Positions 28,607 to 47,305 of a stretch of 64,000 nucleotides of DNA are shown in pieces; the first letter of the stretch is position 1; the number at the start of each line of letters is the position of its first letter. Origin of the DNA: Auricularia sp. M13 (taxonomy: Eukaryota > Basidiomycota > Agaricomycetes > Auriculariales > Auriculariaceae); assembly GCA_037042915.1 (NCBI GenBank), contig CM073198.1:1240001-1304000 (forward strand), read 5' to 3'. Position numbers and translations under genes: made by a program. The notes below the pieces were generated by a model that saw only the letters and a program-made list of their open reading frames with translations, was not told where the DNA came from and searched no databases.

Positions 28607-28641
28607 TCCCCTCGTACCCTCGTTGCCTGTGGGTTTACCTC

Positions 28642-29174
28642 AGTCGCGACTGAGCTGGCGACTGCACCCTGGCCATGACGCACCAGTCTTGACTAGACCC
28701 CGATCAAGATCTCCATCCCTGGCTATAAGAGGCGCAACTCCGTAAACGTTGCCTATTTGAGCACAGCAGTCGTCTCCGTGTTCAAGAGCCATGCCTAGAG
28801 CCCGCAGTGACAGCCTAAGTCTCGTACCCGAGCGTGAGAGCAGTGACCTGATGCTTCTCTACTACTACTTGTGGTTTCGCGTACATCCCATTCGTGCGAA
28901 CGGTGCGCTGATACAGACTTTGGTGGTCGTATTCCAATTCTCATAACCGGATTAATCAAGAGTCTGTTCAACAACACGCTGATAGGGCTATGACGGCATA
29001 TACCTCGTTTGCGCAGGGGTTAACACCACAGCAGCACGAGCGGCTACACATGGTTTTCAGAGCACTGTATGAGCTGCTACAGCTGTGGTAATCTAGACCA
29101 GATCCCTCAGCCCCTTCGCAAAGTCGCGACTTCCATCAGAGTCCCCCAGCGCGGCCTACCTGGTAGTCACGACT
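28642..29174. repeat. Palindrome copies, left subterminal region
   Basis: AGTCGCGACT at 28642 and variant AGTCTTGACT at 28685 (43 bp apart); AGTCGCGACT at 29122 and AGTCACGACT at 29165 (also 43 bp apart). No gene in 28503-29689. Confidence 0.8.
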
Positions 29175-29491
29175 TTCTCGGTTTCCGTCATATTATAACT
29201 GCAATTGGCCTACGCGGGCTTCCCAGCCTTCCTTTCTGACCGCACTCATGTCCTCCCCCCCCTCCAAGACAGAGGCCCGTCCGTCCTCACCAGCCACCGA
29301 GATTCGCTGCCGCGGGACTCCACGGTCGACTCGCCCTCAGCTTGACGTGCTCGATCACGCACAACAGATGTTGTTTACTCGCCTCCGTCTCTTATCGATG
29401 TCTTCATCTCCCTAGGCTTGCGTTGTCTCAGTCTCTACATAAGCGCGCCTCGTCTGAACAACACCGTCGGTCGCAACTACACTGAAGCATT

Positions 29492-29613
29492 AGTCGTGAC
29501 TGAATCCGCACATCAGTCGCGACTGAACTGCAGCCATAGTCGCGACTGAGCCGCACCACAGCCTGTACAAAGTCGTGACTGAGCCGCACCACAGCCTGTA
29601 CAAAGTCGTGACT
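29492..29613. repeat. Palindrome array downstream of cargo gene A
   Basis: Copies at 29492, 29514, 29538, 29571 and 29604, preceded by the variant GGTCGCAACT at 29470. Spacings are 22, 22, 24, 33 and 33 bp. The last two intervals are the same 33-bp unit duplicated (GAGCCGCACCACAGCCTGTA within it). Confidence 0.85.
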
Positions 29614-29689
29614 GGCTTTTATCGTGCTCGCGACGGTTGATTGGCTCAGTCACTTCAAGGCGAAAGTTATCTATTACACGAAACCGAGA

Positions 29690-31218
29690 CTACAGCTCCG
29701 GGGACATCACTCCAGGCGGTACAGCAGCGATTACAACATCAGACGAGTCATCGGAGGATTCAGCCTCGACGTCGGTGGACGCGGCACGAGGTGCTACGGC
29801 CTTTACCAACCTGCGCAGCTCCCCACGGAGTTCGTTGATGCTCTCCTGGGTTTCCTTCTGCCCCTTCTCGAGTTTTGTCAGCTTGCGCCGAATGCTTTTC
29901 ATTGCCTTCGTGACCGTCGCGTCCTTGCCCTCATTGTCGCCATCGGAATCGACGTGGTTTCCGCGACGAGTCGCGCGGGACGCCTTGGGCTTTGCTTTCC
30001 GCGCCCGGCGCGGTCGCTTCTGGGCGGATCGAGTGTTTGACGCGGGGCCCGACGCCGCCGGCCTCCGCCGCTTTGCTGACACGGTTGGCAGGTCAAGCTA
30101 TGCAGTTCGTCAGCGGCAAATCCATGAGAAAGTTCTCAGACTCACCTCGGTTGCGCCGCGGTCCGCGTCGCCGTCCGTGTCGCCGGCCGCGCTCATGGTT
30201 GCGTCCGAGTCGACTTCGGCGTCCGGGTCGAAGCAAATGCGAAACCGCCGACTCTGTATGTCACAGCCCAGGCAGCACCGGCGGTTCGAAAACACCATGC
30301 ACACGCGTAGGATGCGGTTTTTGCGGGCCTTTCCCTTCGCGTTCGGGTCGTTATGGCAGTATATGCAAGCCTTGAACGCCGGCAGAGAGTTCGAGAGACC
30401 GTGCTGGTAGTAATCGAAGGCAACTTGGGCCTTCTCGAGTGGGACTCCGAGCGCAGCAGGCATGCGGGACGGATCATCGAGCATCTCCACGAAAGCAGCC
30501 CCAAGAGCCAGCGAGATGTTCCACAGCTTTGAGCCCTCGTCGATCACATGGTCAGCGAGCGCAGGCTCGATCAGTCTAGACGCGCGATCTGCCCAGTGCT
30601 TCTTGGAACGTATAATGACAGCCCTCGGGCGCCCTTTGAACGCTGATGTGACGAGTCTATACGTGAGGAAGATGCGAACGAGCAACTCGAACAGCCGCTT
30701 CATCCAGTCAGGTGAACGAGGCCCAGTGTTCAGCAGGTCGGCGGCGATGGGGGCGTACGCAGCCAGAAGATAGCAGCAGACGATACCGTCGCCGTTCACG
30801 AAGACTACCGGCTGTGGCGTGCGTTAGCATTGAACAGCGAACCAGGCTGCGGGCAGCTTACAAAGAGGTCACGAGGGTATCTCACAGGCTCACAGGCCTT
30901 CGGCAGGCGTCCAACGCAGTTGAGACACTCAGTGTTCTCCGACAGCAGTTCGTCGCGGTGGTCGTCGTTGCAACACACAAAGTCCTCTGGCAGGTCCGCC
31001 AGGGTGTCCACAGACTCGAGCACATAGCCGAACTGCGCGACCTCGTCGGCAGCGTTTGTCGGCATAACGTAGGCAGCGCGGACCATGGTGGGGATAATCA
31101 GACAAACACGGTCGACGCGCGCGAGGGCTCCCAGTATTTGACCCAACGCGCTTGTGGCAGTGCTCGGGGCCGTGCAAGCCTGTTTTGAACAGGTGGCTGT
31201 GCGCCTTCCATTCTTCAC
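29690..31218 (-). CDS. KDZ-element cargo gene A, unknown function
   Basis: Three exons. Exon 1 from 31218 encodes ALGQILGALARVDRVCLIIP, MVRAAYVMPTNAADEVAQFG and LSENTECLNCVGRLPKACEP, with donor GTAAGC. Exon 2 (about 30812-30140) has LLAAYAPIAADLLNTGPRSP, SKLWNISLALGAAFVEMLDD and a cysteine cluster, CIYCHN...RVCMVFSNRRCCLGCD, which looks metal-binding. Exon 3 is very basic (KRRRPAASGPASNTRSAQKR), then a coiled coil KSIRRKLTKLEKGQKETQES, ending PPGVMSPEL. The basic patch and Cys cluster suggest a nuclear DNA-associated protein. No 2OG-dioxygenase (TET/JBP) motif seen. Palindrome arrays flank both ends of the gene. Confidence 0.65.
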
Positions 31219-31300
31219 TTTCTATGGCGGCGCGCCTCCGCGGCGGTTCGCCTCCAAACTTACTCTCTGCAGCTGCGAGCGCGCAGCCCCCAGGATCCAG

Positions 31301-31389
31301 AAAGTCGTGACTGCCCGCGTCAGCCAAAGTCGCGGAGCAGCGCGCGAGCCAAAGTCGCGACTTTGGCTGACGCGGGCAGTCACGACTTT
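31301..31389. repeat. 34-bp perfect inverted repeat (hairpin)
   Basis: Arm 1 31301-31334 begins AAAGTCGTGACTGCCCGCGT; arm 2 31356-31389 is its exact complement; the loop is 21 bp. Each arm contains a palindrome copy. Located about 85 bp upstream of gene A's start codon. Could form a cruciform or a stable RNA hairpin. Confidence 0.9.
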
Positions 31390-31481
31390 GGCGCGCGCCA
31401 GTCACGACTTTGGCGCGCGCCAACGACTTTAGCGCGCGCTAGTCACGACTTTGCTTTGCTCCGCACTTGATTAGTCGTGAC
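31303..31481. repeat. Palindrome array upstream of cargo gene A
   Basis: Copies at 31303, 31353, 31379, 31400, 31441 and 31472, with half-sites between (for example CAACGACTTT at about 31421). Spacings 50, 26, 21, 41 and 31 bp. Linked by CGCGCGCCA-like GC runs. Confidence 0.85.
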
Positions 31482-31489
31482 TAGAGTCA

Positions 31490-32160
31490 ATCATCTTGTC
31501 CTTTCTTTCGCGGTCCTATCATCCCATCCTTCCTCTTCCCCTCATCTCCCCGATGCTACCCACATCCGGAGCAGTTTCTAGGACCTACCGCGAGACTGCG
31601 CCGCGGACGGGCTTCAGACGCTGCACCGTGTTCAGCGCCTTCCTTGACCATTGGGTGCAGTCCAACCCGATTTCTGTGAACGGCACGTCTGCCGCATCCG
31701 CACAACGTATTTCGTTCATGAAATAAATACCCAGAGTCCCCCTCGGAATACCGGCGACGCGCTGGCGCTGCATACTACGAATGCAGGGCGGCTCTCTCGA
31801 TCCGGCTGAGCCGCTGCACTGTCTACCACCTCTTCATTCACCGCTGGTATGCAGTCCACACCAGGCTAGATGGTGAGTCAAGGCTTGAATCCCTTCATTG
31901 GACTTCTCTGAGAGCCGCACAACACGTAGAGACGACCTCCAACTTCAGGCAGCGGGCCATTCGCGATTATCGCGCCGCCATCGCCGGCACATCTCGTGCT
32001 CAACGTCAGGTCATGCGCATCCAGCTGGCTGCGTGGTCAATTCATTACAGTACTTGTACTCGCGACATGGAGCGCGCTTGAAGTTGTCCTTAATGAAGTT
32101 GGTCTTGCTTATGTCTGCTCGGAGCGGATAGGCACGACTATGTGATCTCGTGCGGGAATT
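31490..32160. other. Cargo-region stretch without a clear gene
   Basis: Pyrimidine-rich tract at about 31495-31560, then short plus-strand frames (31553-31726) too short to judge. Nothing recognised. Confidence 0.4.
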
Positions 32161-32166
32161 CTGCGT

Positions 32167-32430
32167 AGTCGTGACTAGCTGCAATTCACTGAACGGACAG
32201 TCACGACTATGGTTAGCCAGAGCTCTTTCAGTCGTGACTCGTTCGCCACGATCCAATCTCAGTCCCGACTTTCTCGGAGATACCCATTTTGTTTTGTCTC
32301 TCGTGCTTTGCAGGTAGCATATCCACGACTACGGGTCTTGTCTGGAAATCCATCGTAGTCACGACTACACGCAGCGCACCTGAGAATCAGTCACGACTAT
32401 GGCTGCCCAGTCGCTGTTTCAGTCGCGACT
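32167..32430. repeat. Phased palindrome array
   Basis: AGTCGTGACT 32167, AGTCACGACT 32199, AGTCGTGACT 32230, variant AGTCCCGACT 32261, then AGTCACGACT 32357, 32389 and AGTCGCGACT 32421. Spacings 32, 31, 31, 96, 32, 32 bp. The sequences between copies are unrelated. Confidence 0.9.
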
Positions 32431-32690
32431 ATCTCATGTTTATGCAGCCGGAGTGAACCAATACGACTGTCAATCAGTATACCACCTCACCCACGTACCT
32501 TTGCATTGCTTCTGTCGAGACGATGTGGCCGACGGTCGCACTGCGGCAAATCCCGGGATTCCTGTGAGTCGAGCAGTTATGACTATAAAGCACATCGCGT
32601 AAGGGCACCACACTCAGCAAATGGATCCTGAAAGGGCGCATAAGATCGATGAGCTCTTGCAAAGAATCCGTTCATTTTGCCCCTCTGCCT

Positions 32691-32795
32691 AGTCGCGACT
32701 GTTCTCTTGCAAAAAAGCACGACTATGATGATTTTGCAGTCGTGACTGTCTCATCGCCGGGTATCCTGCTAGCAGTGTCGCGCCTAGTCGTGACT
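32691..32795. repeat. Palindromes just downstream of the transposase gene
   Basis: Copies at 32691, 32738 and 32786 with a degenerate half-site GCACGACT at about 32717. Spacing 47-48 bp. Ends about 95 bp from the transposase stop codon. Confidence 0.8.
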
Positions 32796-32888
32796 ACAGC
32801 CACAGGAGAGTGCTAGCATGCTATCAAAAGCCTATATTCGTTCAGCAGTTTATGTACGGACGCCTGCACCAATCTTCATCAAGCACGC

Positions 32889-35800
32889 CTAGTCAGATAT
32901 CTCTATAACCTCGATCGCTACACCCGTCGCGGCACTGCGAGCCTTTTCACTGTCTATGACCCTGAGTGGACGCACCGCAGCAACCATACGTTCCCGCCAG
33001 TTCATCATGTCGCTCTGCGTCAATGAACTCGGAATATCCGCGGTCATCAGATTCACCGCATCGGCCGCCGCGAACGGACCGCAGTCCCAGCCGTTGGTCT
33101 GCCTGCTCTCACGCTGTAATGGTGTCATTCCCTCCCCGGTCATATAGCAAAGCACGGATCGCGTACCTGTTCCCCATGCCACTGGAAGTCTTTGCCGCTG
33201 ACGTCGTCACCAAAAACCTCGCCGCATATGTCCAAGAGCATGCGCGTCAGTTTTTCTAGACGGTTTGCGTACCCCCGACGCGAGAAGCTGTCGTAGAAGT
33301 GGATCGCTCGCTGCGGCCACCGGATTTCCAGAAGCGTCCAGTGTCCCGGGTTCGGTACATGGCCTAGCATCAACCATTTCCGAGCCCGAGACGGCGCAAC
33401 GGCCTGCAAAGTCAACTTGGAGCCGCAATCATACGTGAATTGAATGTGCGAACCCTTTTGAGAGCCAGAACCACATGCTTCTTGCTGGTCTCGGCTCCCG
33501 CCGCGTTGCCGTCCGTACTGAAATTTGCATACGACTCGATGTCGGCCAGAATGACCGAGTGCAAGACGCTGATGTTCTGCTGGCCCGATTGCTCCAGTGA
33601 GTGCTGCAAGAAAACCGTAAGGCCCGGTCCCGATAACCAGGCGGTACGCTGGGCCATACGGTCGACGTCTTCGTCCCAGCACCTGAAGTCGCCAGCCTGA
33701 TATACCCAGCGGACCGCCCGCGTTCTCTTCGGTCGCGTCGCGTCGCGTATAGACTCAGGTTCAGAGTCCTCCATGACGTCCTGCTGCGTCGACGAGGTCT
33801 GTATCAGTAGCACCTTCCTCCAACTCGAAGTGCTCACCTGAGCGTCTGCCCGTATATCCGCAGCATCTTGCAGCTGCGACGCCATCGCGTTCACCTCCTC
33901 CCCCTCCCCCTCTCCATCTCCTTCATCCTTCAGCACCATCGCATCGAGGATATCCACGAGGAATGGGTCGTCATCTTCCTGGATATCGGAATATGCGTCT
34001 GACGCGTCATCCGAGTCGACCTCGCGCGGCGACGGCGGCGGCGACATTGAGAAACTCCGCGCTTCTTCTTCTCGGGCTGTTGTATCTGTAGCGGCTGCGA
34101 AGCGGAGCCCAAGCGCGCAGGACCTGAGATCGTGCTGCCAGACCTGCAGCATACGTCGGTGAGTCTCCAATCGACGCTCTATCGCGCCCAGAACACTGCT
34201 ACCCCCTAATAGTGATGTCAGCGATGCTCTGGCAGCTATCACGCAGCGCGTACCGAAGCCTCTGCGCAGAACGCGCGCATGGCACTGTCTTCTTCCTTCC
34301 ACCACTGCGCCAACGCGGCTTGCTCGGCGTCGAGCCGCTCCATCTCCTCCAGACACCGATCTTCCTCCAGCAATGCGAGTATGCCACGCTTGACGTTGTC
34401 GTCGGCCTGCCAGCGCGGGATGTCGCCTTCGTCCTGTGGCCCGAGGCCTGGGTCTTCCTGCCAGATTTCGTCGTCTACGTCCAGCTTGAACAGCTTCTTC
34501 GCCTCCAACGTCTTGGGCAGTGGTGACCGCCCAGGAGGCTTTAGACCCTGCCGCGCGAGCCGTCTCATGTTGTCGACCAAGGCGTTGTACTTCTTGACCT
34601 GTGCCGTTAGGGTTTGCTCGCGACGCTGGATTGCGTCTTTCGTTTGGCTGTGCTCGCGGGCCTCTGGACCTGGCGTTAGGATGCGTGCCGGCCTATTGCA
34701 CTGCAATGCAACTCACCGAGAACTTGGTGCCTGTACGCGCGTTCCACCTTGCGATGTTCGAACTTGTGCTTGACGAGATTAGCCCGAATGGCCGCACGCA
34801 TAGCGCGTGCATTGACACGCGCGCACACGTATGCATTGCCGCGCATCTCCTCCAGGCGGCGACAGCGCTCGGTGCCCAACGTCGCGTGTAATGCAACGAC
34901 GCGCGACTCCGTCGTCTCGAGGTTTCGTCGCGCGGCTTCCAGCGCCGCGGTGGTCTTTTGCAACTGGCCAGCGGTGAGCGCGTGCGCCTTCCGTAGCTCC
35001 TTGCGCAGGTCGCGGATTTCGTCCTTGTAGTCCTGCACTGTCGCGAGGGCGACAAGGATCTCGTCGATCGCCTTGTCGCCCGCATTGGCCGAAAGTCCTG
35101 AAATGCGGTCAGCGTGTACATATGCTTCGGGTGCCGTGAAGTGAGCATACGAGTGTTTTTCGCCAGCTGTGCATCCACTTGCAGCTTCCACTGAGCGCGC
35201 AGCTCGACGCGCGGCACGCCCGTGCCCAACAGGATCGCCGCGCCTCACCAAGACGCCTCTGGGCCTCGAGGTACTTCCGTCGCAACCACGTGCCTATTTT
35301 CCACAGCGCGCTCTTGCTCAGCGCATCCATCTGACGGTTCAGCACAAACAAGCGGCGGTAGAACTGCACGCGTCAGTTAATTTGCCTCATACTGTGCGGG
35401 ATTGTACACGCACCCCAGAGACGCGAAGCCCGGATATCAGGTGTCGAATAGAGCTCCAGAACCGTTCACACCCTTCGCCGTCGCTCAAGCCAAAGCCTTC
35501 GCATTTGCGGGGGTGGAACACGACTTGGCATTCCCACTGATGCCCGTACGCGTGAAAGACCGAAACAGCAAACTCGAATCGATCCGCAAATTCTGGAAGA
35601 TAACCCCACTGAATGTCCTGTTAGCGCACGTCATCTTCGGGAGAGCACAACTGTCACAGACCTTTTCTATGCCACGACTCAGCTGACACGCGATGTCGTA
35701 GAGCAAACCGACCCTCCAGTGCCGGGGGATCTCCTCGCCGAGCTTGCGCAGAAGCGTGAGCGCGTAGAACTGCCGCTCGCCCGGTGTGGATATACTGACG

Positions 35801-37583
35801 ACCCAGAGGACGCGGTCGTGACGGCAGAGCAAGGCCATCAGGCCAGTGTCCGCAAAATAATTCTTAGAGGCCTTTGTGACCTTCTCCTGCGCGGCGATGA
35901 ACGACTGCTCGCACTGGTCGAGGACCTCATCGTTCACGCGCGCGGCCTTGCCCTTCCTGCGCCGCCGGACTGGTCGTTTCTGCAAAGTCTCCATCTCGGC
36001 GGCCATCGAGGACGCTCAGCCTCCGTCGCAAAGCGCGACGGAAGAAACTCGAGGGGTGGGTCGCCATCCGCGCATTTGCGTCGCTTCTGCGCAAAATTGG
36101 CATCGAGACAGACTATGACGTGCGCTCTGTGCACAGCGTCAGCCCTGTACAAAATTGAGCGATACCGCGACGCACTTTGAATGCACAAGCGCAGGTCTTT
36201 CGCCGCCGAAGCATAACGCGCACTTCTGTCTCAGAGATGCGGACGGACGGCGCTGCGCAGTCGCCTCCACGCCGTCGCCGTCGCCGTCGCCGTCGCCGAC
36301 GCCGACGCCGGCGGCGACTGCCTGCACCCCATCGCCCTCGCCGCGCACGACGGCGCGGCGATTGACAGCCGCGGCGTGCCCGTCGTCTTGCTGCGCGCGA
36401 TCTGCTGCCCCGTCGTCGTCGCGCTCGGGCGGCACGCTGTTCCCGTGAGCTGGGCGATGTTCTGTAGCAGGGGAAATCACGCTGTCATCAGCTGTCGGCG
36501 GCGCACATTCCTCAAACGCAACCGCGGTGCTCACTGTGCAGTTCCGACTCGACAAGAAGGTCCGCCTTGTTCAGAACGACCTGGTACCAGGTAAGCGCCA
36601 TCCCTAGACGCTTGCGCAGCCGTCCCTGAAAGCAGCGGTCGATCCGTCAGTCGCTGGCGAAATGCGATCACGTTGCAAATACCGTAAGTTTTTCCTGCGG
36701 CGCGTCGCGCGTCCAGAAAGTCTCGAGGGTCTCTGCCCAGGCCGTCACGTTCGGGGCAACGAGGAGGGAATGGATGGAGATGAAATGCAGGAGATCCAAG
36801 TGGAACGCCATGGACGGGCAGATCGGAGCGCAAGGGAAATATCCGCGCGCGATGAGCTGCTCTGCTGCGGGGCGACAGTCGCAAATCGTTATGAATAAGC
36901 TGTGCGAGCCTGCAGCAGTTCAATTAGCATCTGCACGGACGACACGAACCGCACGGGTTTCAAGCACCTGCCCAGTCCGCACACATCACTTTCAGCGCCC
37001 TGCTTTTCCCGCAGCCGCACATCGCGATATCCTCGACGCCCTGCCCGTGCTTGAGGTCCAGGTACAGTCGAGGGAGCCGTTCAGCCGCCATTTCCCGCCA
37101 ACGCAGGTTCTGCGCCACGCGTCGCCGACGGTGCCTCGATTTGTTCGACTCCTTCGGTATATGCACATGGAACCCGTGATCGCGGTCCCAGTCGTCGGAG
37201 TCGTCCTGGTCGACACCGAGCGCAGCGTCCACGTCGAACCATTCAGGGCGGGGGGCCTCCTGGCGAGCTGCGAAGAGCGCCGCTGTGGCCGATCGCCCCG
37301 GCACGGTAGATGGCGGGATCCCGGGTTTCTGGAACAGTTTCTTGCCGCCAGGGAGAGAGAGCGCGACGTCACGATGAATACCGCGCGGTAGCTTGGGTTC
37401 ACCGGGCAATCGGCGGCGGCGCGGTAGTTGTGACTTGGTCACCAACTTGTAGTCGTCCAGGTTCACGGGCGGGGGCGGTCGGTCGGGATCCGCGAGCGCT
37501 GCATTAACGCGCTCCGCTGCGTCTGCACGCGCGCCCGCGCGCCGGCGCTTGGTCCCTGTGCCTGTGCGGAACGCGGCGCTCAT
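32889..37583 (-). CDS. KDZ transposase fused to Ulp1/C48 protease
   Basis: Many exons. The N-terminus (37583) is basic: TGTKRRRAGARADAAERVNA. CxC1-like zinc motif MCGCGKSRALKVMCADW, then ICDCRPAAEQLIARGYFPCA and NVTAWAETLETFW. The transposase core has VIVCLDANFAQKR (first Asp, about 36110), VGLLYDIACQL (second Asp, about 35700), FHAYGHQWECQVVFHPRKCE and GFGLSDGEGCERFW (Glu, about 35470): the D-D-E set of KDZ transposases. Then RRLFVLNRQMDALSKSALWK, coiled coils, and IERRLETHRRMLQVWQHDL. A Ser/acidic linker leads to the protease: GHWTLLEIRWPQRAIHFYDS (His, Asp) and QTNGWDCGPF (Gln, Cys). It ends at 32889. The fusion is read as one gene because a GTACGC...TTAG intron (about 34250-34205) bridges the two parts in frame; two adjacent genes remain possible. 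Confidence 0.85.
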
Positions 37584-37654
37584 CGTGACGGCGAATAGAA
37601 CGACGGGTCGGAGTCTAGAAACGCGTCTCGGATGAACACATCGCCATCCAAATT

Positions 37655-37693
37655 AGTCGCGACTGAACTGTGTTTCTGTCCCGAGTCGCGACT
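37655..37693. repeat. Palindrome pair upstream of the transposase start
   Basis: AGTCGCGACT at 37655 and 37684, in a 29-bp direct repeat (TGAACTGTGTTTCTGTCCCG between). Begins 72 bp upstream of the transposase ATG, i.e. in its likely promoter. Confidence 0.85.
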
Positions 37694-37962
37694 GAACTGT
37701 GTTTCTGTCCCGAAATGAGAAATGGTTTCTCTCCAGAAGCCTGAGCAGGTTTTTATCCCGAAGCCGGAAAGCGTTTCTTTTGGCCAGTGGTCTGCTGAAG
37801 TCCCCAAGACATTACAGTATGGCTGAATGAATGTACACCATCCCTCATAACATCGTGCAATTGCACTCCACATGCTACCTCTGAACCAGTTTCGAAATGC
37901 GCGCGAAGTGGCGCGTTTCGATCCAGAAGCCAAAAACCGGATTTCGATCCAGAAGGTCTGGG
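37667..37962. repeat. Degenerate 24-29 bp repeats (TTTCT.TCCCGAAGCC)
   Basis: Units around 37669, 37698, 37722, 37749 and again 37912-37960 share the core TTTC followed by (G)ATCC(C/A)GAAGCC. Diverged, partly tandem. Located between the transposase promoter and cargo gene C. Confidence 0.6.
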
Positions 37963-38207
37963 ATGTTCTCCTGTAGTCCGTCCCGCGCCCCTCAGCACGC
38001 GATAATGAAGGGAAACAAATCGAGTGTATATGCCCTTCAGTGTGCACTAATTTTCTGTTGCATATCTTCCAACAGTGCGGCTGGAGGCCATGCAGTTCAT
38101 AGTTGCGGGAGAAAGCCGGCGACTCCTCTCTTCCATTCCATTCACACTTGTGAACTGACCGCTCGGGAATCGACTGTCAAGTGGTCTTTTAGGCTCTCCT
38201 TCAGCTC

Positions 38208-38829
38208 ATGGGACGACCGCCGAAGTACCTCACCGAGGAGGAGCGCCAAGAGGCGCGCAGGCGCGCCCGCCGCAAGTACTACGCAAGGTGCGTCGTCCGG
38301 CGCTCCTGCTCGTGTTTCTCTCAGCCGAAGTCCTCGCAGCCATGCGGAGCAGGAGAGACTGTCAGCCTTGAAACGCTGGCACTCTCGCAAAGACACGCAG
38401 AAACAACGCAGGAGACAACGTCACGGAGAGCTGGATCCACTGCCATGCACTACATCGGTACGTTCTCGTTCGCTCCCTGCAGACCACCCATTGCCTAAAT
38501 GCACCGATGTTTTGCAGCTACTTGGCAGTCCTGCAAAGATCCAGGATTCGACGCCCTTGCAAGCAGCGGCCGCGGCTCTCCGCGCCGACTTGGCGCGGTG
38601 GAAGGCCCACGACGTCGATGATGACGCCGCATGGACGGAATACACGACCCGCCTTCTCAAAACGATGCTCAACAGCAAGAAGCAGGCAAAAGTTCATTTG
38701 GAACTACGCAAAAAGGCCAATTTGGCCCAGCAGGTTCTCGACATAGCGCAGGCAGGCTGGCACGGCGCGTGGCGTCGGCGCATCAAGTCGGAGGAGAGCG
38801 AGCTGGACGAACTCGCAGCGTGCTCATGA
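38208..38829 (+). CDS. KDZ-element cargo gene C, basic DNA-binding-like protein
   Basis: Exon 1 MGRPPKYLTEEERQEARRRA then RRKYYA (donor GTGCGT at 38289). Exon 2 from about 38340 gives SHAEQERLSALKRWHSRKDT then QKQRRRQRHGELDPL and donor GTACGT. Exon 3 from a TTTTGCAG acceptor (about 38518) reads LLGSPAKIQDSTPLQAAAAA, an amphipathic helical region with WTEYTTRLLKTMLNSKKQAK, ending SELDELAACS. About 165 residues, strongly basic N-terminal half starting like the GRPPKYLTEEER motif seen at the front of many Agaricomycete transposon-linked proteins. A candidate binder of the element's palindromes, by inference only. Confidence 0.65.
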
Positions 38830-39047
38830 TATTGCTCACGGGCTCAGAGAGCTGCTCACGCTTCATGAGGCTGGGGAGTCCTTGCTTCAAGAAATGTACG
38901 ACTCGGAAAAGTTGGCGTGGCAGTGTATTTAGCATCACGGTATACATGCCTTGGCTCCCATCTCCTCTCCCGTGCGCTGGTCGTCTGATTGGCAAAGTGT
39001 GAGGATGAGAAACGAGGATAGCACTTAATCACTCACCTCTCAGTCGC

Positions 39048-39719
39048 TCAGCTCGATGTCGCTCTCCGTGACCGGGCGTTCAGGACCAAAAACAGGACGG
39101 CTAGTCCCCTCCTCCTGCGCTGGAGACGATCGGTCCGCGACCACGGGCGTTGCGGCCGAATGCTGCGGCGGACCAAAGATGAGACGAGGAGCATGCAAGT
39201 TGGGGAGCCGCGTCGAGCGCCAGACGGAAGCGAAGGCCGGCGCGCGAGATACTCCGCGACGTGCGCCTGCAGGCTGGCGCCGCTGATGGTCTGCCAGAAC
39301 GTGCTAGGAAAGTACGCGCCGTCGTGCTCGGCACAGTCGTCGCAGGGGTCCAGTCTGGTGCAAGTCCGCGGCTGCAGCCCAGCATTTCGGCGGCGAGTCG
39401 CGCAGTCCCGCTGGTGCAAGACAAACTCGAGGTAGGCGCGGTCCTCCTGGGGGTCGGGAAACTCGTCGTCCGGGGGCAACTCGCGGTCGCTGTCGCTGCC
39501 GTCGCTGTCGTGGTACCATTTCGCGTCGGTGCCACCGGGCGGGGGCGGGAGACCCCAGCCCCTGATGCGGCGGAATACAGGTTCGGGCCAGCCGGACCCA
39601 TGCTGAACCTCGTCGGTCTGGTCGTCGTCCCATGTTGATGACCAACTGGAGACCGTCTGAGAGGCACCGTTAACCGGGCGCGTCTGAGCATCCGCCGTCG
39701 GCCGGAGTCTAATGCGCAC
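39048..39719 (-). CDS. KDZ-element cargo gene D, acidic protein of unknown function
   Basis: Frame from 39719: VSSWSSTWDDDQTDEVQHGS, RIRGWGLPPPPGGTDAKWYH, DSDGSDSDRELPPDDEFPDP, AYLEFVLHQRDCATRRRNAG, a Cys motif CTRLDPCDDCAEH, and STFWQTISGASLQAHVAEYL. Near the 3' end another frame looks more natural (RLIFGPPQHSAATPVVADRS ... VTESDIELSD), so an unrecognised intron or a frameshift lies near 39215. Divergent from gene E across the 39969-40406 palindrome array. Confidence 0.55.
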   Translation of the reverse strand: MRIRLRPTADAQTRPVNGASQTVSSWSSTWDDDQTDEVQHGSGWPEPVFRRIRGWGLPPPPGGTDAKWYHDSDGSDSDRELPPDDEFPDPQEDRAYLEFVLHQRDCATRRRNAGLQPRTCTRLDPCDDCAEHDGAYFPSTFWQTISGASLQAHVAEYLARRPSLPSGARRGSPTCMLLVSSLVRRSIRPQRPWSRTDRLQRRRRGLAVLFLVLNARSRRATSS

Positions 39720-39968
39720 GATGAGGAATACCCAATATAGAATGTGTGCCTACACACCTGTGGCTACCAACGTCGTCGGGAGGCTCCTGCACCGGTGCTT
39801 CAGAACTTCAGAGAGGTTTGTCAGTCATGAGAGTGCGGATGCGAGGACGAGCTCACGGAAGTTGAGGTGAGTGCGACATCTGCAGTGTGAACCAGCGAGA
39901 GAAAGAGGGCAGGTCTCTGAAATGCGCGCAGACCTCTAGGGTATGTAAGCGACGCTTGGGAAGGGTAA

Positions 39969-40406
39969 AGTCGCGACTAGACCACGCGCCGCACCGCTCA
40001 GTCGCGACTGAGTACTGCATGATGCAGAGCAACGCGTCGTCCGAGGAAGTCAATGATACTGCAGTCGCGACTGGGACATCATTGCAGAGCCAAAAGTCGT
40101 GACTAAGGTCGATTGGAGCGGGAGAAGTCGCGACTGAAATTTGACCGCATATGCGTAAGTCGCGACTGATATCTGATTGGAGATGGAATTCATGATCGTC
40201 CGCAGCAGTCCCATCGTAGTCGTGACTAGCTCGGCTAGATTGCGTGCAAAATAGGGTGTGTGATGACCGTTCTGCGGGATTCGCCGGATCCCTCTTGCTC
40301 ACCTCCCACGCGCGCGCAAGGCACCGTATCACGCCCGCGCTGGCGGCAGCCCAGCGCGGGCGTGTAGTCGCGACTACGATCGGGTGGCGCAGCTGCAGTC
40401 GTGACT
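39969..40406. repeat. Phased palindrome array between divergent genes D and E
   Basis: Copies at 39969, 40000, 40063, 40095, 40126, 40158, 40218, 40366 and 40397, plus degenerate AGTCGCGCC sites at about 40416 and 40432. Spacings 31, 63, 32, 31, 32, 60, 148 and 31 bp. The last copies lie within 70-110 bp of the gene E start codon. Spacer sequences are unrelated to each other. Confidence 0.9.
40331..40363. repeat. 13-bp perfect inverted repeat
   Basis: ACGCCCGCGCTGG (40331-40343) and CCAGCGCGGGCGT (40351-40363), 7-bp loop, directly before the palindrome at 40366 in the gene E promoter region. Confidence 0.8.
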
Positions 40407-40472
40407 TAAAAGGTCAGTCGCGCCCAGCATCAGTCGCGCCTTGTCCTGACTCTCCCGACGTCGTACTCACGC

Positions 40473-43400
40473 CATGCCTCTCACGCGCGCGCAGCTTAAG
40501 GATTCCACCGTCTCCGAGCCGCGCAAAATTACGCCAGGACCCGAGGCTCCGGACAACGCGCCTTCAGTGCTCGCGGATGGTACGTCGTCTGCTTGAACAT
40601 AATAACTTTCCGTTACTGACTCGCGACGTAGAAACACAATTGCAGGGACAACGGGGTACCTCTGTCATCGCGCGTGAAGCACAGGTAAGCCTCTTGTGAT
40701 TGCGACTCATGGTGATGTCAGGCTTATGCGTCCACCAGCCGCCTTCGGTGGGCACGCATGCCGACCGCGAGGAGTCGAACCCGTTGCACGGCCCGCGGTC
40801 TCTGACGTTATGCTCGCCACGGTATGTCATTGATTCAGTCTGTTATACATGGTGCTCACGATTCCTCACATTGCTTAGAGTCGCGGTCTGCTCGTCCGAA
40901 AAGAAAGACGAGACAGGAACTTGAAGCGGAAAAAGAGGCAGAAAGGGTACGCGGTCAGCGTTTGCCTGAAGGTCGGCCGCATCTGACGAGCACCACCCGT
41001 TTGTGCAGGCCGCCCGCTGGGAGGCGCAAAATGCGGACGTCCTTCATCAGACGGTACCGCCGGACCCGCTCAAGCCGCCTGCGCAGAAGACAGCCGCGCA
41101 GGCGGCGTCAACGTCGACCGCGCAGGTGAAGGCGGGTGGACAGGCCTCGTCGACGAAGGCGAAGCCGCAGCCCACCTCCAACACGCGCGCCCCGCTGGTG
41201 CCAAAGTCGGCCAAGCAGGCAAAGTCCAACGCGCGCGCGCCCGACCAGGCGGAGTCAGACGACGGCGCTGCGACTCGTGCTCTCGGCGCGTCGAAGCACG
41301 ACACGTCAGAGCGGCCATTGGATGGCGAGGAGGCGGATACGGAGGAGCACGGGGTCCTTGACGACGGCGCGCCTGCCTCGGCGCGCGGGCGTGGTCGCGG
41401 GCGTGGACGCGGTCGGGCTCGAGGTCGTGGTGCACGAGGCGGCGGACACCTTGTACCGTCCGAACCACTACAACCGGCTCCTAACGCCGCTGGCGACGAG
41501 GACAAGGTCACGGCGACCGCAGATGGCGCGCAGGTGCGTTTGCCCGCTATGTAGTTCATGAGTTAATACTGACTCAAGACCGCGGCGGCCGAATTGTAGG
41601 CCGCTACTTTTAGCGACATCAACGACGAGGACGATGGCCTCAGGTTCGACCCGAGGGCGGTGGAGGGCTACGAGAGCGAAGAAAGCGACGACGACAGCGA
41701 CGGCGCTCATCGACCTGCGGGTGCATATAAGCCAGGTCCTCTCCCCAAGGCGTACGCGGACGAGTTCGATGCAGGCGGGAAGAAGTTCCTGAAGTGGGTC
41801 GAGGACAAGGCCAAGGAGTATGGTGTTTCGCCGCAGTCCCTCATCAAGCGGCTCGGCGTGGTGCTCCACGCGCTGCAGTCCAAGGGTCCGACGACATGGA
41901 ACCTCTGGCAGACGAAGTTCTGGGCAGAAGTTCGCAAGGCGTTCGAAGCGAGTGAAGGTGAGCGGACCTGGTAATTCGCAGTGTCCTTGGACGCGACTAA
42001 CAAACCCGCAGACCCCGACAAGAAAATTGTCTTCGCGAGAAGATGCCGCGAAGAATACGAGGCGGAAATGGCCAAACTGAAGACGCAGCCCGAACGCGAC
42101 GCTTTCCACAAGAAGCTCCTGGTATGGAACAAGCGCCTGGATGCTGAGCTGGCGACGACAGAAGTGAGCCTGGGCAACACGGCGAAGGTCATGCGTCGCC
42201 TCACAAATCACATCGAGTCGGAAGTAAGCTCAATAGCTTGCTACTGCCCGACACTTGAACCTGTCTAACCTGGACTCGCAGATGGAGCCGTACTACTACA
42301 ACTTCGGCATCTCGGTCTTCGGGTGGATGATCTGCGTTCGCCCGGGGCAAACGCTGGCACAGCAGGCAAGTTGCTGCTTCGCGAACAATCGGATAGCGCG
42401 CAAGATGGCGGCCTCAAACGGAGTAGCCCTCGCGACGGCAGCCAACGAGCAGGTGCTCCTGCAAGGGTGCGTGTAACGGCGGCGCGAGCGTCGAGAACGT
42501 CGCTGACTTGACTGTGTATTGTTAATTAGCGCGCTCAATTTGAAGGAGCAGGCGTTTGAAGATTACAGCGAGGACATGCAGGCGAAATTGAAGCGCGAGA
42601 AAAAGGACCAGGGCATGGTTCGCAGTGCACTCCGCAAGGCACTCCAGAGGTGGCTCGGTATGGTTTTTCCATTCACGACGGCGATGAATGCTGATGCGCA
42701 GAAAGGTACCATCGACGCAGACGTTGCGGACAGCTCAAAGGGAACGTATGCGAAGTTCGGCACCAAGGTCCACGAAAACGATCACCACGTCGAGGGCTGG
42801 CCGGACGGCGTCAGGCTGCCGATGGACATCGTTCAGACTCACTACAGCCGGTCGGAAATGATCAAGCTCATCGACGCTCTGTGGCCTTTATTGCGCTCGC
42901 CGACGGACAGCGTCATCGGACTGCGCTTGGTGCCGTACACTGAAGGTTAGTGGATCACAGAGACCGCGCGACAAGTCGAAGCTGATGACACCCAGAGGAA
43001 CGTCAGCTGCGCTATGAGCCAGGCTCGTATAGCGACTGGAAGAACCTGCCTTTCTGGACGACAGATCAAGGCACCGTGTTGCTGCGCATCGCCGATGTCA
43101 TGAGAGCGCAGGACGCGGCAACCGGCAGCGGGCAGGTCGACAGCAAGTCTGGCGCAAAATCGTCCAAGGCGACAGGTGTCGCTAAGAAGGCGAAGGCGGA
43201 TGACGAAGCCGACCAGGTCGACGACAAGCCTGGCGCGAGTTCGTCGAAGGCGAAGGCGCGCGCGAAGAGCCGGCAAGGAAGCGCAAGAAGGCGACAGAGG
43301 AGACGGACGCGCCGCAGAAGAAGCGCCGCGCGGCACCGGCGGCGGGTCGCCAGGCGGAGCCGCGGAACACTCAGCGTGGAGGCGGCGGTGCGATCGAGGA

Positions 43401-44168
43401 CGCGATGGAGGAGGAGGAGGAGGAGAGCGTGGCAACGGTACGCACAGAGCAACAGAAATACGTCACTCAGAACTGACGCGCACATGACCATAGAATGCAG
43501 AACTGTTGCGCGAACACAACCGTGAGCCCTCGGAGAGTATCTTCGACCAACTGGAGAGGGAAAACCCGGGGATATTTCCCAAGGGCGACAACGCTTGGCG
43601 CGCGCTAGACGGGACTGGAAAGGGGCCACTCTTTTTGGACTACGATGAGCATGAGGCACAGGCGTTCGATCTGCAGCAGCCGGTGCAAGGCGGATATGTC
43701 GACACGACGAACCTGCTGCTGAGGCCGTCGGAACCCGGGACTATCGACCCCGCGAGCGTGTTCTCCGCCTCCGCCGCCACGCCGTCCGCAGGGCTCGCAC
43801 CGTTTCCCGCTCAGTCTGTGCCTGCTGCGCAGGCAAACAGGGCGCCGATGGCTGGCCCCATCGGCGACCGCGCGCAGCCGCAGCTCCAGTCATCCCTGCC
43901 AGTTCCCGACTCGCGTATTCCGGCCGTTACGCATTTTGACGCGGGGAGCGCATTGTTGCCATCCACTTCCGGTGCGGGGCAAGGCCAGCCACTCCCACCT
44001 TTGCCCCCTCCGACTGCGCCTGCCTCGCACCTTGCGCAAGAACCATGGGCGCCGATGGCTGCAGGAACAGTGGGCGCCACGCCGGTAGATCCTGAGCTCA
44101 TGCGCAGATTTGAGCTGTTCCTCCAGTTCGAGAACTTTGCCAATGGGAGCGGGATGCGTCCGCTGTAG
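40473..44168 (+). CDS. KDZ-element cargo gene E, large protein of unknown function
   Basis: About nine exons. Starts MPLTRAQLKDSTVSEPRKIT. A long Ala/Lys-rich linker (41003-41530) holds an RG-rich patch, ARGRGRGRGRGRARGRG. Then FSDINDEDDGLRFDPRAVEG, DEFDAGGKKFLKWVEDKAKE, TTWNLWQTKFWAEVRKAFEA, KLLVWNKRLDAELATTE, MEPYYYNFGISVFGWMICVR and KFGTKVHENDHHVEGWPDGV. The C-terminal part is Lys-rich, then REHNREPSESIFDQLEREN and a Pro-rich tail ending NFANGSGMRPL. The WNLWQxxFW ... helical block ... YYxxGISVFG layout is one I have seen in Agaricomycete proteins of unknown role that accompany KDZ elements; that link is from memory. RG patches suggest nucleic-acid binding. Confidence 0.65.
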
Positions 44169-44226
44169 TGACTGCGTCCAACGTCGTGTCTTTGACAATA
44201 TAATGCAGTGAATGCGCCAGTGCGGT

Positions 44227-44344
44227 AGTCCCGACTACTTATGACCACAGTAACGACTGCGAATAATCATAGTCACGACTCTCGCGAGATGCAACTAATG
44301 ATAGTCACGACTCTCGCGAGATATGCTTCTCGTTAGTCGCGACT
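44227..44344. repeat. Phased palindromes downstream of gene E
   Basis: Variant AGTCCCGACT 44227, AGTCACGACT 44271 and 44303, AGTCGCGACT 44335; spacings 44, 32, 32 bp. The last three share CTCGCGAGAT-like spacer starts. Begins 59 bp after the gene E stop. Confidence 0.88.
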
Positions 44345-44872
44345 ATCGCGGAAAATAATGGTCGGATTGAATCTTTGTGCCAGCGGCGAGACCGGCGCTA
44401 AAAATCGCGCGTCTCGCACAAACTCGCGCGGCTTTAGAACTAGTGCGACAACAGCATTTATTGCACGCGTCACACGGAGAACGACAAGCAGATGCGGGAT
44501 TGAGAATGAGGTACATCCAAGGCGACAGGTTCGAACGCGAAGAGGTAAAGGAGGGTGATTCTACCGATGAAATACTATGAGTATGCGGCTGGCAGTATCG
44601 TCTCAAACTTTACCTGAAAGTGCAATCAGCGGCCGCCAGCGAGCGTGTTGAGCTCGTCAATGAGATCTCTGATGGTCACGTGCTGTGAGGCGAGGTGTGC
44701 GCGAACATCGTGAGCACTGAGGAAGGCCTGCGGCACCCCGTTCGGTGTGGGATGCTGGTTTTGCCGCGCAATTAGACAGCGCATTGAGGACATGGTGAGA
44801 TGGAAAGAACATCTGGAACGGCGGGCGTGTTACTTATAAGAGGAGGCCGGAGTCGGACTTGGTCCACAGTAG

Positions 44873-45298
44873 AGTCGCGACTACAAGACTCAAGTTACGA
44901 CTGGCACAGCTTACAGTCACGACTTGGCGCACTTCGCATGCCGCCAGTCGCGACTTCGACAGCTCTCAGAAGTCACGACTTGAGCGTTTTCCCCGTAGTG
45001 CTAGTCACGACTGCTGACCGATTTCCCCGTCTCTAGTCACGACTTGAGCTGTTTCACCGTCTCGATAGTCACGACTTGCCCGGCTTTTCCGCGATACTAG
45101 TCACGACTGCTGACCGATTTCCCGTCTCTAGTCACGACTTGAGCTGTTTCACCGTCTCGATAGTCACGACTTGCCCGGCTTTTCCGCGATACTAGTCACG
45201 ACTGCTGACCGATTTCCCGTCTCTAGTCACGACTTGAGCTGTTTCACTGTCTCGATAGTCACGACTTGCCCGACTTGTCCGCAATACTAGTCACGACT
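44873..45298. repeat. Main phased palindrome array with 95-bp higher-order repeat
   Basis: Palindromes at 44873, (44893 variant AGTTACGACT), 44915, 44946, 44971, 45003, 45035, 45067, 45099, 45130, 45162, 45194, 45225, 45257 and 45289. From 44971 every spacing is 31 or 32 bp. From 45003 three different spacers repeat in fixed order (starting GCTGACCGATTTCCC, TTGAGCTGTTTCACC, TTGCCCGGCTTTTCC), giving a 95-96 bp unit present about three times. All copies in this part are AGTCACGACT in one orientation. Confidence 0.93.
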
Positions 45299-45588
45299 GC
45301 AGACGATGAGACTTGCCACAGACGCGCGCGCGACGGCGAACGGCACAGACTCAAAACCGAAGTGGCATTGTGCGGCGGGCTTAGCAGTGACAACTTGACC
45401 GGCAAGTTCAAGATGACCCGTTGGTCGTCTGGGCGTCATGACCTTGTCCAGAAAACGTAGCATCGTATGCATGCACCCGTGCGTAGAACGGAATAAAATC
45501 GCCGCGAGAATGGCCCTTGGTCAGCTGTCTCCGCGCGCATTCTATGTCGCGCCGACTACAGGAAATTGGTGAGACAAGGCCGGCCGAG

Positions 45589-46047
45589 TCAGAGCAAGTA
45601 GTCTACGCACCGAGATTCCTGTGCGGCCGCGAATGCACGCTGATGGTACTCGTCCTGTTCCAAGCACTGAGATGCGTCCGAAAGCTTGTAGAACTGAACG
45701 AGATAGTAGACCATGCGCTCGCGAAATTGGAGTGAGGTGTCGTAGAGCAGGGTATACTCCTCGCGGAGCGACTTTTGCAATGCCTTAGCCTTGGCGAGAT
45801 CCGCTTCAAGGACATCGCAGATGGACTTCAGGCGGGCGTTCTCCTGAGTAATCTGGTCCTTCTCGTACAGCAGGCCGAGGTGCGTGGTCCAGTCTAAATT
45901 CTGGCGGACTAAGTCGAGCTTGGACAGGGCAGCAAACAGCTGAGCCGTATCGCCCGCGGGGGGAGGAGGAGAAGGTGTCCGCGGGCCTCCGGAGTCGCAA
46001 GCGGGGTCGTAGAGAGGGCCACAGCGGTCGGGCACGGCACCGGACAT
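45589..46047 (-). CDS. KDZ-element cargo gene F, coiled-coil protein
   Basis: A single open frame of about 152 residues from ATG at 46047: MSGAVPDRCGPLYDPACDSG, a Pro-rich stretch, then a heptad-rich helix LFAALSKLDLVRQNLDWTTH, KDQITQENARLKSICDVLEA and DLAKAKALQKSLREEYTLLY, and RERMVYYLVQFYKLSDASQC. Ends SRCVDYLL. Codon bias is clear. Divergent from gene G; the 250 bp between their starts holds four palindromes. Probably forms homo- or hetero-oligomers; role unknown. Confidence 0.65.
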   Translation of the reverse strand: MSGAVPDRCGPLYDPACDSGGPRTPSPPPPAGDTAQLFAALSKLDLVRQNLDWTTHLGLLYEKDQITQENARLKSICDVLEADLAKAKALQKSLREEYTLLYDTSLQFRERMVYYLVQFYKLSDASQCLEQDEYHQRAFAAAQESRCVDYLL

Positions 46048-46119
46048 GGGATAAACCTGAGGAGCACAGCGTAAGTGCTTGTATAAGAAAGGGTGGAACT
46101 GCACATGATTGGCGTCGAT

Positions 46120-46219
46120 AGTCGCGACTTGTGCCTCTGTACAGGTTGTTCAGTCGCGACTTCTGAGGTTGTTCAGTCGCGACTATGCCGGCGAGAGAAG
46201 CAAGAGAGAAGTCGTGACT
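46120..46219. repeat. Palindromes in the F/G bidirectional promoter
   Basis: Copies at 46120, 46152, 46174 and 46210; spacings 32, 22 and 36 bp. The site nearest gene F is 73 bp from its ATG and the site nearest gene G 78 bp from its ATG. Confidence 0.88.
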
Positions 46220-46296
46220 GTGGAAATGAGGTCGGCGCGCCAGCATCACCGACTCTGAGAAACCTTGTACTCTCCTTCGCCGCGTCGCACACCGCA

Positions 46297-46680
46297 ATGC
46301 CCGAGCCCGCCTCAGAGACGACGGACATCCCTCCTCGCATTATCCGCCGTGTGCCCGCATCTCTATATCTCCTTCTCTTCGGGCAGATACGCTACGCCGT
46401 CCACACCGGCTTGGACTCTGACTTCAAGAAGTTGGACGAACAACTCCTGGATCTTCTGTCCTACCAGCAGCCCGAAAACGAGTTCTGCAAGATGCAACGG
46501 ACGTTCAATAACTGGACGAAGAGGCTCGAGGCCAAGGAAGCGCAGTTGGACGAGCTGATCACGAGGCTTATCGTCCGCTGCATCGAGCTCAACGTCGCGA
46601 CGGACGCCGAGATCGCGGAGATCGAGGAGGTGCGCAGGCGCGGCAGCGCCGGACCGAGTCAGGCCGACAGTGCGACTTAG
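46297..46680 (+). CDS. KDZ-element cargo gene G, small helical protein
   Basis: Open frame of 127 residues, MPEPASETTDIPPRIIRRVP, then ASLYLLLFGQIRYAVHTGLD, a helical region FCKMQRTFNNWTKRLEAKEA, QLDELITRLIVRCIELNVAT and a charged end IEEVRRRGSAGPSQADSAT. Strong G/C third-base bias, no intron needed. Size and coiled-coil character suit a partner of gene F, with which it shares a promoter region (inference). No family recognised. Confidence 0.65.
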   Translation: MPEPASETTDIPPRIIRRVPASLYLLLFGQIRYAVHTGLDSDFKKLDEQLLDLLSYQQPENEFCKMQRTFNNWTKRLEAKEAQLDELITRLIVRCIELNVATDAEIAEIEEVRRRGSAGPSQADSAT

Positions 46681-47149
46681 GGGTTGGTGAGTCTAGAGCG
46701 TTTGCGGCTGGTATTTCACAGGACTCATGGACGCTTCGCTGAAGATCTCACGAGCTCGATCCAGCCGCAGAAAGCAATGCGGATGCTTGAGAGATGCAAT
46801 GTAATTGATGTTTTCTTTCGTTGTGTGTCTACGTGCAACCTGGTATATTGGCTTTTGCGCGGATATTGTATGATGTCGAAAGGGAAATGCACATAAGAGA
46901 CGGGCCTCGGACAAAACAATTGCGAGACTGAGAGCGGCGGTGAATGTGGTCTAGTAATCCACTAGCAGGACTAATTGCGCTATGAGATCGTATGCAGTCT
47001 TGGTTTCGTAGTCGCGGTTAAATGCGGGAAGGCTGGCGACGTCTTGCGGTGTTTGGTTGGGAGAGGTCATTGCGGAGAAGGAGTGTGCACGGCCGGGGCT
47101 TGTATGCACCACACAGCAACCTGCAATAGGCGCGACTTAGAGCAGGCAT
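46681..47149. other. Non-coding right subterminal region of the KDZ element
   Basis: No frame of coding bias. Holds degenerate sites such as AGTCGCGGTT (about 47010) and GGCGCGACTT (about 47129). Confidence 0.5.
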
Positions 47150-47216
47150 AGTCACGACTGACTCGGCATCACAGGGATTGCTTTGGATTGCTGAAAAGTC
47201 CTGGCTAGTCGCGACT
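47150..47216. repeat. Palindromes in the right terminal repeat
   Basis: AGTCACGACT at 47150 and AGTCGCGACT at 47207. The latter lies at offset 82-91 from the element's right end, matching the degenerate AGTCCTGACT at the same offset from the left end, which ties the palindrome to the transposon termini. Confidence 0.88.
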
Positions 47217-47297
47217 GCGCCCAGGAAGGCCCTCGAGGTCCAACTTCAAATGAGTCGGGATGCGCCTTGTTGGGCCGGTTTGCGGCAACCTATGGTG
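47194..47297. repeat. Right terminal inverted repeat of the KDZ element
   Basis: Complement aligns ungapped with 28503-28606: 58 of 104 positions identical by my count, with cores CAACAAGGCGCATCCC (offset 26) and GACTAGCCAGGACTTT (offset 88), read on the minus strand. Confidence 0.75.
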
Positions 47298-47305
47298 GAG
47301 AGGAC
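47298..47305. repeat. Target-site duplication GAGAGGAC, right
   Basis: Identical to 28495-28502 and in the corresponding position of the FAD monooxygenase coding frame. Confidence 0.88.

Follow-up and report, generated by a model that had tools for sequence, protein, structure and literature searches.

Introduction

In Arabidopsis, the proteins VANC21 and VANC6 bind different short motifs, YAGTATTAY in the former case and AGTTGTCC/AGTTGTAC in the latter, which are present as tandem repeats in the non-coding DNA of the protein's own VANDAL transposon family, and the binding removes DNA methylation (PMC5735166, PMC10398659). For the CACTA elements (En/Spm, Tgm), subfamily-specific subterminal motifs have been described that are proposed to be bound by TNPA-like proteins (PMC2613891). 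Here, we examine an 18.8-kb KDZ DNA transposon of the fungus Auricularia sp. M13, the non-coding DNA of which carries arrays of the palindrome AGTCRYGACT. The element lies in a 64,000-nt stretch of contig C6 (CM073198.1), called the window in the following, and the genome searched comprises 52.1 Mb on 14 contigs. With slightly better than even confidence, and judging from sequence, we propose that AGTCRYGACT represents the predicted sites of a family-specific DNA-binding protein that is encoded by the element and that marks and activates its own family.

Within the KDZ superfamily, the Kyakuja elements of Agaricomycetes are described as having CA..TG ends, no terminal inverted repeats (TIRs) and a 7-bp target-site duplication, the duplication of Zisupton being 8 bp (PMC12730594). 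The elements KDZ1-KDZ3 of Cryptococcus neoformans are 9-11 kb long, still mobile and equipped with TIRs of 139-241 bp, and their copies are almost free of methylation (PMC12810828). A word search of PMC12730594 gives no use of 'tandem repeat' or 'subterminal', and in the passages considered of PMC12810828 there is no description of motif arrays and no use of 'subterminal'. Likewise, a literature search by title and abstract, with subscription papers mostly outside it, gave no description of motif arrays in KDZ elements. The sequence-only reading in which the arrays were first noticed knew of no described system of this kind, but the VANC/VANDAL (PMC5735166) and TNPA/CACTA (PMC2613891) cases do exist, in plants and in other transposon superfamilies.

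Results and Discussion

The window contains 57 exact copies of AGTCRYGACT, all of them between positions 28642 and 47216 and none in the remainder, which reproduces exactly the count made earlier by eye. Less than one copy had been expected by chance, and this is borne out by dinucleotide shuffles of the window, which give a mean of 0.27 and a maximum of 2. Also in an unbiased ranking of dispersed 8-mers, the words of this motif are at the top by far, with z values up to 13.8. Sites with one mismatch number 13 in the window, 11 of these inside the element. The central dinucleotide is GC in 22 cases, AC in 22, GT in 13 and AT in none, as compared to ca 5 AT centres expected if the two halves were independent (p 0.0035), which means that every site retains at least one CGACT half. 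Decay of CpG was considered as the origin of the RY centre, and the observed/expected ratio of CpG in the element is 1.19, that is, not depleted.

The boundaries of the element, 28502 and ca 47298, were obtained from three copies, in the window and on C1 and C4, that stop at the same points, the end base being uncertain by 1-2 positions. The aligned pieces of the C1 and C4 copies are 98.8-99.6% identical to the window copy. All three start with CAGCTC and end with GGTG, the two ends are by eye not inverted repeats of each other, and the target-site duplications read 7 bp in the window, 8 bp on C1 and 7 bp on C4. The two flanks of the window copy match places on C1 that are only 156 bp apart (2606569-2607092), as expected of two halves of one gene. 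By eye, 28290-28490 and 47410-47960 of the window resemble a flavin-dependent monooxygenase gene on the minus strand, apparently interrupted by the element. The other copies have themselves been invaded: on C1 an insert of 35 kb (C1:4677133-4712390) breaks up the large 32-bp array, and the C4 copy has two inserts of ca 5.6 and 4.3 kb, the flanks of each apparently overlapping by 5 bp. AGTCRYGACT was looked for in these inserts, and none was found.

The KDZ transposase domain (PF18758) is matched above the cut-off by two overlapping open reading frame (ORF) pieces, with E values of 5.2e-22 and 4.1e-21, and the CxC1 zinc domain in the same gene scores 32.5 bits against a cut-off of 26.9 (1e-7). 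A match to Ulp1/C48 proteases at the C-terminal end of the transposase (33143-33754) is below the cut-off (15.5 bits, E 0.016, cut-off 20.7). With its CA..TG ends and lack of an evident TIR, the element fits the description of Kyakuja, whose KDZ transposase it shares; the duplications of its three copies, 7, 7 and 8 bp, include both the length given for Kyakuja and that given for Zisupton. The published account of Kyakuja deals with TET/JBP cargo (PMC12730594), for which a Pfam scan of 20 ORF pieces of the present element gave no match. KDZ1-KDZ3 of Cryptococcus are alike in the KDZ and CxC1 domains and in having 4-8 bp duplications, and unlike in their long TIRs (PMC12810828).

We now turn to the distribution in the genome, where AGTCRYGACT has 395 sites. 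The three element copies hold 57, 55 and 57 of these, i.e. 169 in total, and 226 sites are outside them. The number predicted is 179 by base composition and 250 by a first-order Markov model, and the same pattern written backwards, used as control, has 341 sites. The scattered single sites are thus at chance level, and no set of clustered sites of the host is visible. At least 2 of the 226 sit in a KDZ locus on C4 (3.05 Mb). For close pairs the distribution is very different from even: out of 194 pairs with a gap of 0-61 bp in the genome, 193 are within the three copies. With gaps of 0-30 bp there are 101 pairs, all in the three copies (backward control 7), and with gaps of 31-61 bp there are 93, of which 92 are in the copies (backward control 0). 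The single outlying pair, on C4 at 3047886, is ca 3.4 kb from another KDZ transposase.

The features of the element are as follows; the gene models are our own, read from open reading frames, and the TAGGC and CAGAT families are related KDZ elements discussed below.

28502..47298: KDZ (Kyakuja-like) DNA transposon, 18.8 kb, 5'-CAGCTCAGG...CAACCTATGGTG-3', with 7-bp flanking duplication GAGAGGA
28642..29174: left-end sites (28642; 29122, 29165), from the motif count
29492..29613: five clustered sites on the 3' side of gene A
29692..31086, minus strand: gene A, with CxxC-type cysteine pairs, a basic stretch and a coiled-coil-like tail (by eye)
31303..31482: six clustered sites upstream of gene A, at 216 bp from its start
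32167..32795: two clusters with 9 sites, directly 3' of the transposase gene
32900..37583, minus strand: gene T, KDZ transposase with CxC1 zinc domain and a weakly C48 (Ulp1) protease-like C-terminus
37655..37693: two sites upstream of gene T, the nearer one at 71 bp from its start codon
38208..38932, plus strand: gene B, N-terminus GRPPKY, homologue in Auricularia
39051..39749, minus strand: gene C, cysteine-containing, present also in the TAGGC family (tblastn), start uncertain
39969..40406: cluster of 9 sites between C and D, the nearest 67 bp upstream of the D start
40474..44168, plus strand: gene D, encoding a large accessory protein, relatives of which are seen in other KDZ families (tblastn, by eye, reading frames)
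44271..44344: three sites at 32-bp steps, 3' of D
44639..44793, minus strand: ORF E, small (ca 50 amino acids), uncertain (reading frames)
44873..45298: cluster of 14 sites with ten successive 31/32-bp steps from 44971, the nearest 79 bp from the E start
45597..46047, minus strand: gene F, by eye coiled-coil-like; the TAGGC family has a weak relative (30% over 60 amino acids)
46120..46219: four sites between the divergent genes F and G, at 72 bp from the F start and 77 bp from the G start
46297..46680, plus strand: gene G, inside a stretch 81% identical in nucleotides to a CAGAT-family element on C8
47150..47216: two right-end sites

The gene spans make up 65% of the element and hold none of the 57 sites, so that the restriction to non-coding DNA noted earlier is confirmed for every site. 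Upstream of five start codons the nearest site is found at a quite similar distance, 71 bp for T, 67 for D, 79 for E, 72 for F and 77 for G, and for gene A it is 216 bp away. The starts of T, B, D and G resemble, as read by eye, those in related elements, and in the TAGGC family the nearest motif site is 82 bp upstream of the D start. Other clusters are found on the 3' side of A, T and D and close to the two termini, and in all there are 12 clusters across the whole element. The earlier statement that clusters lie beside every cargo gene is therefore mostly correct but does not apply to gene B, which has no site within 514 bp upstream.

Concerning the spacing, 24 of the 56 gaps between neighbours are 31 or 32 bp, a distance that the sequence-only reading had given for most neighbours, and the ten successive steps from 44971 in the 14-site cluster are indeed 31 or 32 bp each. 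It is important to point out that parts of the arrays are tandem duplications (44971-45304 with a 95-bp unit and 29538-29614 with a 33-bp unit). Homologous spacers were collapsed, leaving 26 gaps of at most 110 bp for the periodicity test. The exact 10-mers flank 26 groups of unrelated spacers, in agreement with the earlier impression that the spacers are mostly unrelated. Among the collapsed gaps, 12 of 26 are 31-32 bp, while ca 1 would be expected for a flat distribution over 20-65 bp (binomial p 2.5e-10).

The sequence-only reading had gone further and placed every gap close to a multiple of 10.5 bp. For all 26 gaps the 10.5-bp periodicity is weak (Rayleigh p 0.012, jitter control p 0.014) and a period of 9.5 bp fits better, and it is due to the 31-32 bp mode, since the other 14 gaps (23, 25, 25, 29, 33, 35, 42, 43, 47, 48, 50, 57, 60 and 63 bp) have no periodicity (p 0.76). 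Similarly, 21-22 bp is not a common gap, as there is only one of 22 bp next to three of 23 and two of 25. General helical phasing is thus rejected, and what stands is one preferred spacing of three turns, 31-32 bp.

A genome search with the element finds many diverged KDZ transposases. Five related loci, whole or in large part, were compared with the window, namely C11, C9, C8, C1b (C1 at 8.69 Mb) and C11b, together with 3.8 kb of C4 at 3.05 Mb as a sixth; at least ten further KDZ loci are outside the comparison. C11 and C9 are near-identical copies, which we count as one case and call the TAGGC family, with an 8-bp target-site duplication in both, while C8 and C1b, ca 70% identical to each other, form the CAGAT family. 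The motif counts, in the order window, C11, C9, C8, C1b, C11b, are:

AGTCRYGACT: 57, 0, 0, 0, 0, 0
TAGGCRNT: 1, 38, 37, 1, 2, 0
CAGATGC: 3, 0, 0, 25, 23, 6
CAGAT-N5-CAGAT: 0, 0, 0, 13, 11, 0

Four host stretches and the 35-kb insert contain no AGTCRYGACT, 0-5 TAGGCRNT, no CAGAT-N5-CAGAT and 2-8 CAGATGC. The families compared are thus without AGTCRYGACT arrays, and three have motifs of their own.

In the CAGAT family, same-strand CAGAT words are exactly 10 bp apart 13 times in C8 and 11 times in C1b, and 20 bp apart 6 times in each. Triples at 10-bp steps number 7 genome-wide, every one of them within these two elements (control 0). In both elements there are six clusters with three or more sites, and these follow one another in the same order and at matching positions, although single sites have been gained and lost. 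The conserved coding parts of C8, 53% of the element, hold 2 of the 25 CAGATGC and 17 of the 72 CAGAT. A repeat block by C8 (1722.2-1722.9 kb) was dropped, being beyond the element boundary at 1723.8 kb. For the TAGGC family a dyad form of the motif was also considered, but only TAGGCRNT is enriched, as the genome has just 7 occurrences of the full 13-bp dyad and 6 of the backward control. The TAGGCGCAG block of C11 (2481960-2482400), which can be read as a Pro/Ala-rich repeat within the region of gene D, is outside the TAGGCRNT count. At C7:655549-655655, near a KDZ transposase, there are two TAGGCRNYGCCTA sites spaced as in C11 and C9, and to judge from this resemblance the locus is probably a third copy of the TAGGC family. 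Short AACCT/AGGTT repeats were seen in two KDZ loci, C11:1717514-1717724 and C9:3461845-3462055, in the latter case in a stretch that is missing from the near-identical C11 copy.

The third motif is found in the 3.8 kb of the C4 locus, which contains 2 exact and 12 one-mismatch AGTCRYGACT sites, whereas six equal-sized host pieces have none of either. The commonest form here is AGGCRCGACT (AGTCGCGCCT on the opposite strand), and it includes an array with a 32-bp period. Pairs of AGGCRCGACT with a 10-40 bp gap occur 4 times in the genome, all within 18 kb around the C4 KDZ transposase, and we infer that these sites belong to one element. A change of one base in the motif at the same 32-bp step suggests that the oligomer geometry of the binder may have been kept and its specificity changed. 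C11b has TGCGGGTCCC with a 32-bp period at C11:1724231-1724660, the same step as in the window element and possibly the same geometry with another motif.

It is instructive to see what remains alike between the families. The window and TAGGC families share the right end CAACCTATGGTG without any difference, while C1b departs from it at one base and C8 at two; in C11b a right end of this type was looked for and not found. At the left end, CAGCYCAGG, the window element resembles C11 and C9, and C1b deviates by a single mismatch. Sequence searches find T in all five related loci and B and D in C11, C9 and C11b. In C8, tblastn with B gives no match, and B and D were recognised there by eye and loose alignment only (B 20% identical to the Auricularia protein). 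At the level of sequence, then, the ends and the transposase stay alike between the families and the internal motif changes. The region of gene G is more alike than the transposase genes, 81% nucleotide identity between window 46245-46903 and C8:1725374-1726052 as compared to a match of ca 65-72%, which hints at exchange between the families. This similarity starts at 46245, 26 bp past the end of the last AGTCRYGACT site (46219), i.e. beyond the array, so that the gene is common to both families and the array is not.

The similarity to the VANC/VANDAL system is that related families have different motifs, that the transposase is better conserved than these, and that the family-specific arrays are in the non-coding DNA of the element. 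On the other hand, VANDALs are Mutator-like plant elements with an identified binder, whereas here we have a fungal KDZ element with a predicted one, a dyad motif, and a preferred spacing of 31-32 bp (or 10 bp). A VANC-type match is absent from the 20 unspliced ORF pieces that were scanned against Pfam. With CACTA elements the KDZ families have in common that the repeated motif differs between subfamilies, that the termini are conserved and that a binder encoded by the element is proposed. They differ from them in that the CACTA repeats are subterminal and those considered here form clusters over the intergenic regions of the whole element, and in that CACTA has a TIR and a 3-bp duplication instead of CA..TG ends and 7-8 bp. 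By analogy, the KDZ case would work like both systems, and we assign it to neither, because no VANC homologue was found in this limited test and the sites are not only subterminal.

On this basis the following mechanism can be proposed. An element-encoded dimeric protein would recognise the dyad of 10 bp, in which one half-site or both are CGACT, and adjacent dimers would favour a separation of three helical turns (31-32 bp). The protein would cover the non-coding DNA of its own family only, near core promoters, at gene 3' ends and at both termini, and when bound it would keep the genes of the element open and expressed, by either activation or anti-silencing. Related KDZ families would use the same scheme with other motifs, such that each has a private address code. 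The points that argue for an element-encoded binder keeping the genes expressed are the promoter-near sites, the lack of clustered sites outside KDZ loci and the family specificity. Binding by a dimeric protein was already suggested in the sequence-only reading and is the best interpretation also after the comparison with related KDZ elements, which strengthens it, the part on general helical phasing excepted. It should be noted that an anti-methylation role is not to be assumed for KDZ arrays, since the Cryptococcus copies are nearly unmethylated.

Among the genes, A, which has basic and cysteine-rich parts, is a plausible binder. As regards gene B, a search with it found one Auricularia protein, and the AlphaFold model of this homologue has a long basic N-terminal helix and a helical bundle (mean pLDDT 80, five sequences), a fold without a match in the PDB at E<=0.001. 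Yet the GRPPKY start of gene B is nearly the same across families with different motifs.

A number of observations weigh against the proposed mechanism. With gene A and with residues 320-760 of D as queries for the binder, no homologue was found, and gene A has no significant match in C11, C9, C8 or C1b. T, B and D are common to the families although the motif differs, and gene B is without a near promoter site. The same holds for the T promoter of the TAGGC family, which has no exact TAGGCRNT site, and for ca 400 bp upstream of gene G in C8 and C1b, which have no CAGAT. That substitutions between the element copies fall in motifs in 0 of 98 cases, ca 3 being expected, is a weak result.

Other reservations concern the motifs of the relatives, which were found and counted in the same sequences, with two diverged elements only in the CAGAT family. 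Their words reach z values of 8.0 (TAGGC) and 8.5 (CAGAT), not above the best word of the 35-kb insert (9.3), the best 8-mer in host stretches having 7.2; these motifs rest thus on counts, spacing and matching positions. CAGATGC occurs 8 times in one host stretch (C1, 10.8 kb), for which simulations give 2.15 on average and 6 at most. This weakens the shorter word as a family motif, and CAGATGC-N3-CAGATGC is found 8 times in the genome, 6 times in C8/C1b and twice elsewhere (C3, C6). Finally, TGCGGGTCCC of C11b is largely one tandem block, and we have not counted it as a further case.

The main rival explanation is a TNPA-like role in transposition, in which the sites would be architectural and an accessory protein would compact the long element and join its ends, any effects on expression being secondary. 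CACTA elements provide a precedent, in that their termini are conserved while each family repeats a motif of its own, for which a separate protein of the element is the supposed binder (PMC2613891), and the KDZ families, too, have similar ends and different motifs, with sites near both ends in the window (28642, 47150-47216). However, most of the sites are internal, at promoters and in 3' regions, at 67-79 bp from five start codons in the nearest cases, while the CACTA motifs are subterminal, and we therefore consider this role to be rather unlikely.

A palindrome is the typical site of a dimeric factor, and together with the promoter-proximal positions this would also be compatible with a hijacked host transcription factor, the arrays being sites for an activator or repressor of the host. 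Against this, there are 0 close pairs outside KDZ loci in 52 Mb, the single sites are at chance level, and each family would require a host factor of its own, so that we judge this explanation to be quite improbable. That the 10-mer is a functionless repeat spread within the element by slippage and local duplication would agree with the blocks that are plainly tandem duplications, but the exact 10-mers among mostly unrelated spacers in 12 clusters, all outside genes, and the CAGAT cluster positions kept at ca 70% identity despite the turnover of single sites make this very improbable indeed.

Conclusion

Returning to the element-encoded binder, we tentatively put forward a more general view, to which we give somewhat less than even confidence. 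KDZ transposons would carry a diversifying address code, consisting of dimer-sized family motifs that the protein sets three turns or one turn apart, in non-coding positions that are similar between families, together with a rapidly diverging element-encoded reader that marks self against silencing and does not cross-activate sister families. The pair AGTCRYGACT/AGGCRCGACT may then represent the code in the middle of a change.

How transposons that are alike avoid mutual activation, and how each of their families evades silencing separately, is still to be answered, and the VANDALs of Arabidopsis are the published case that we found. If the present proposal is true, the KDZ elements would be a second, independent case in another kingdom and another superfamily, which would point to private arrays of binding sites as a strategy in general use. 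Three or four versions of the motif are present in a single fungal genome, and two versions differ by one base, so that it would here be possible to test directly how motif and binder evolve together.

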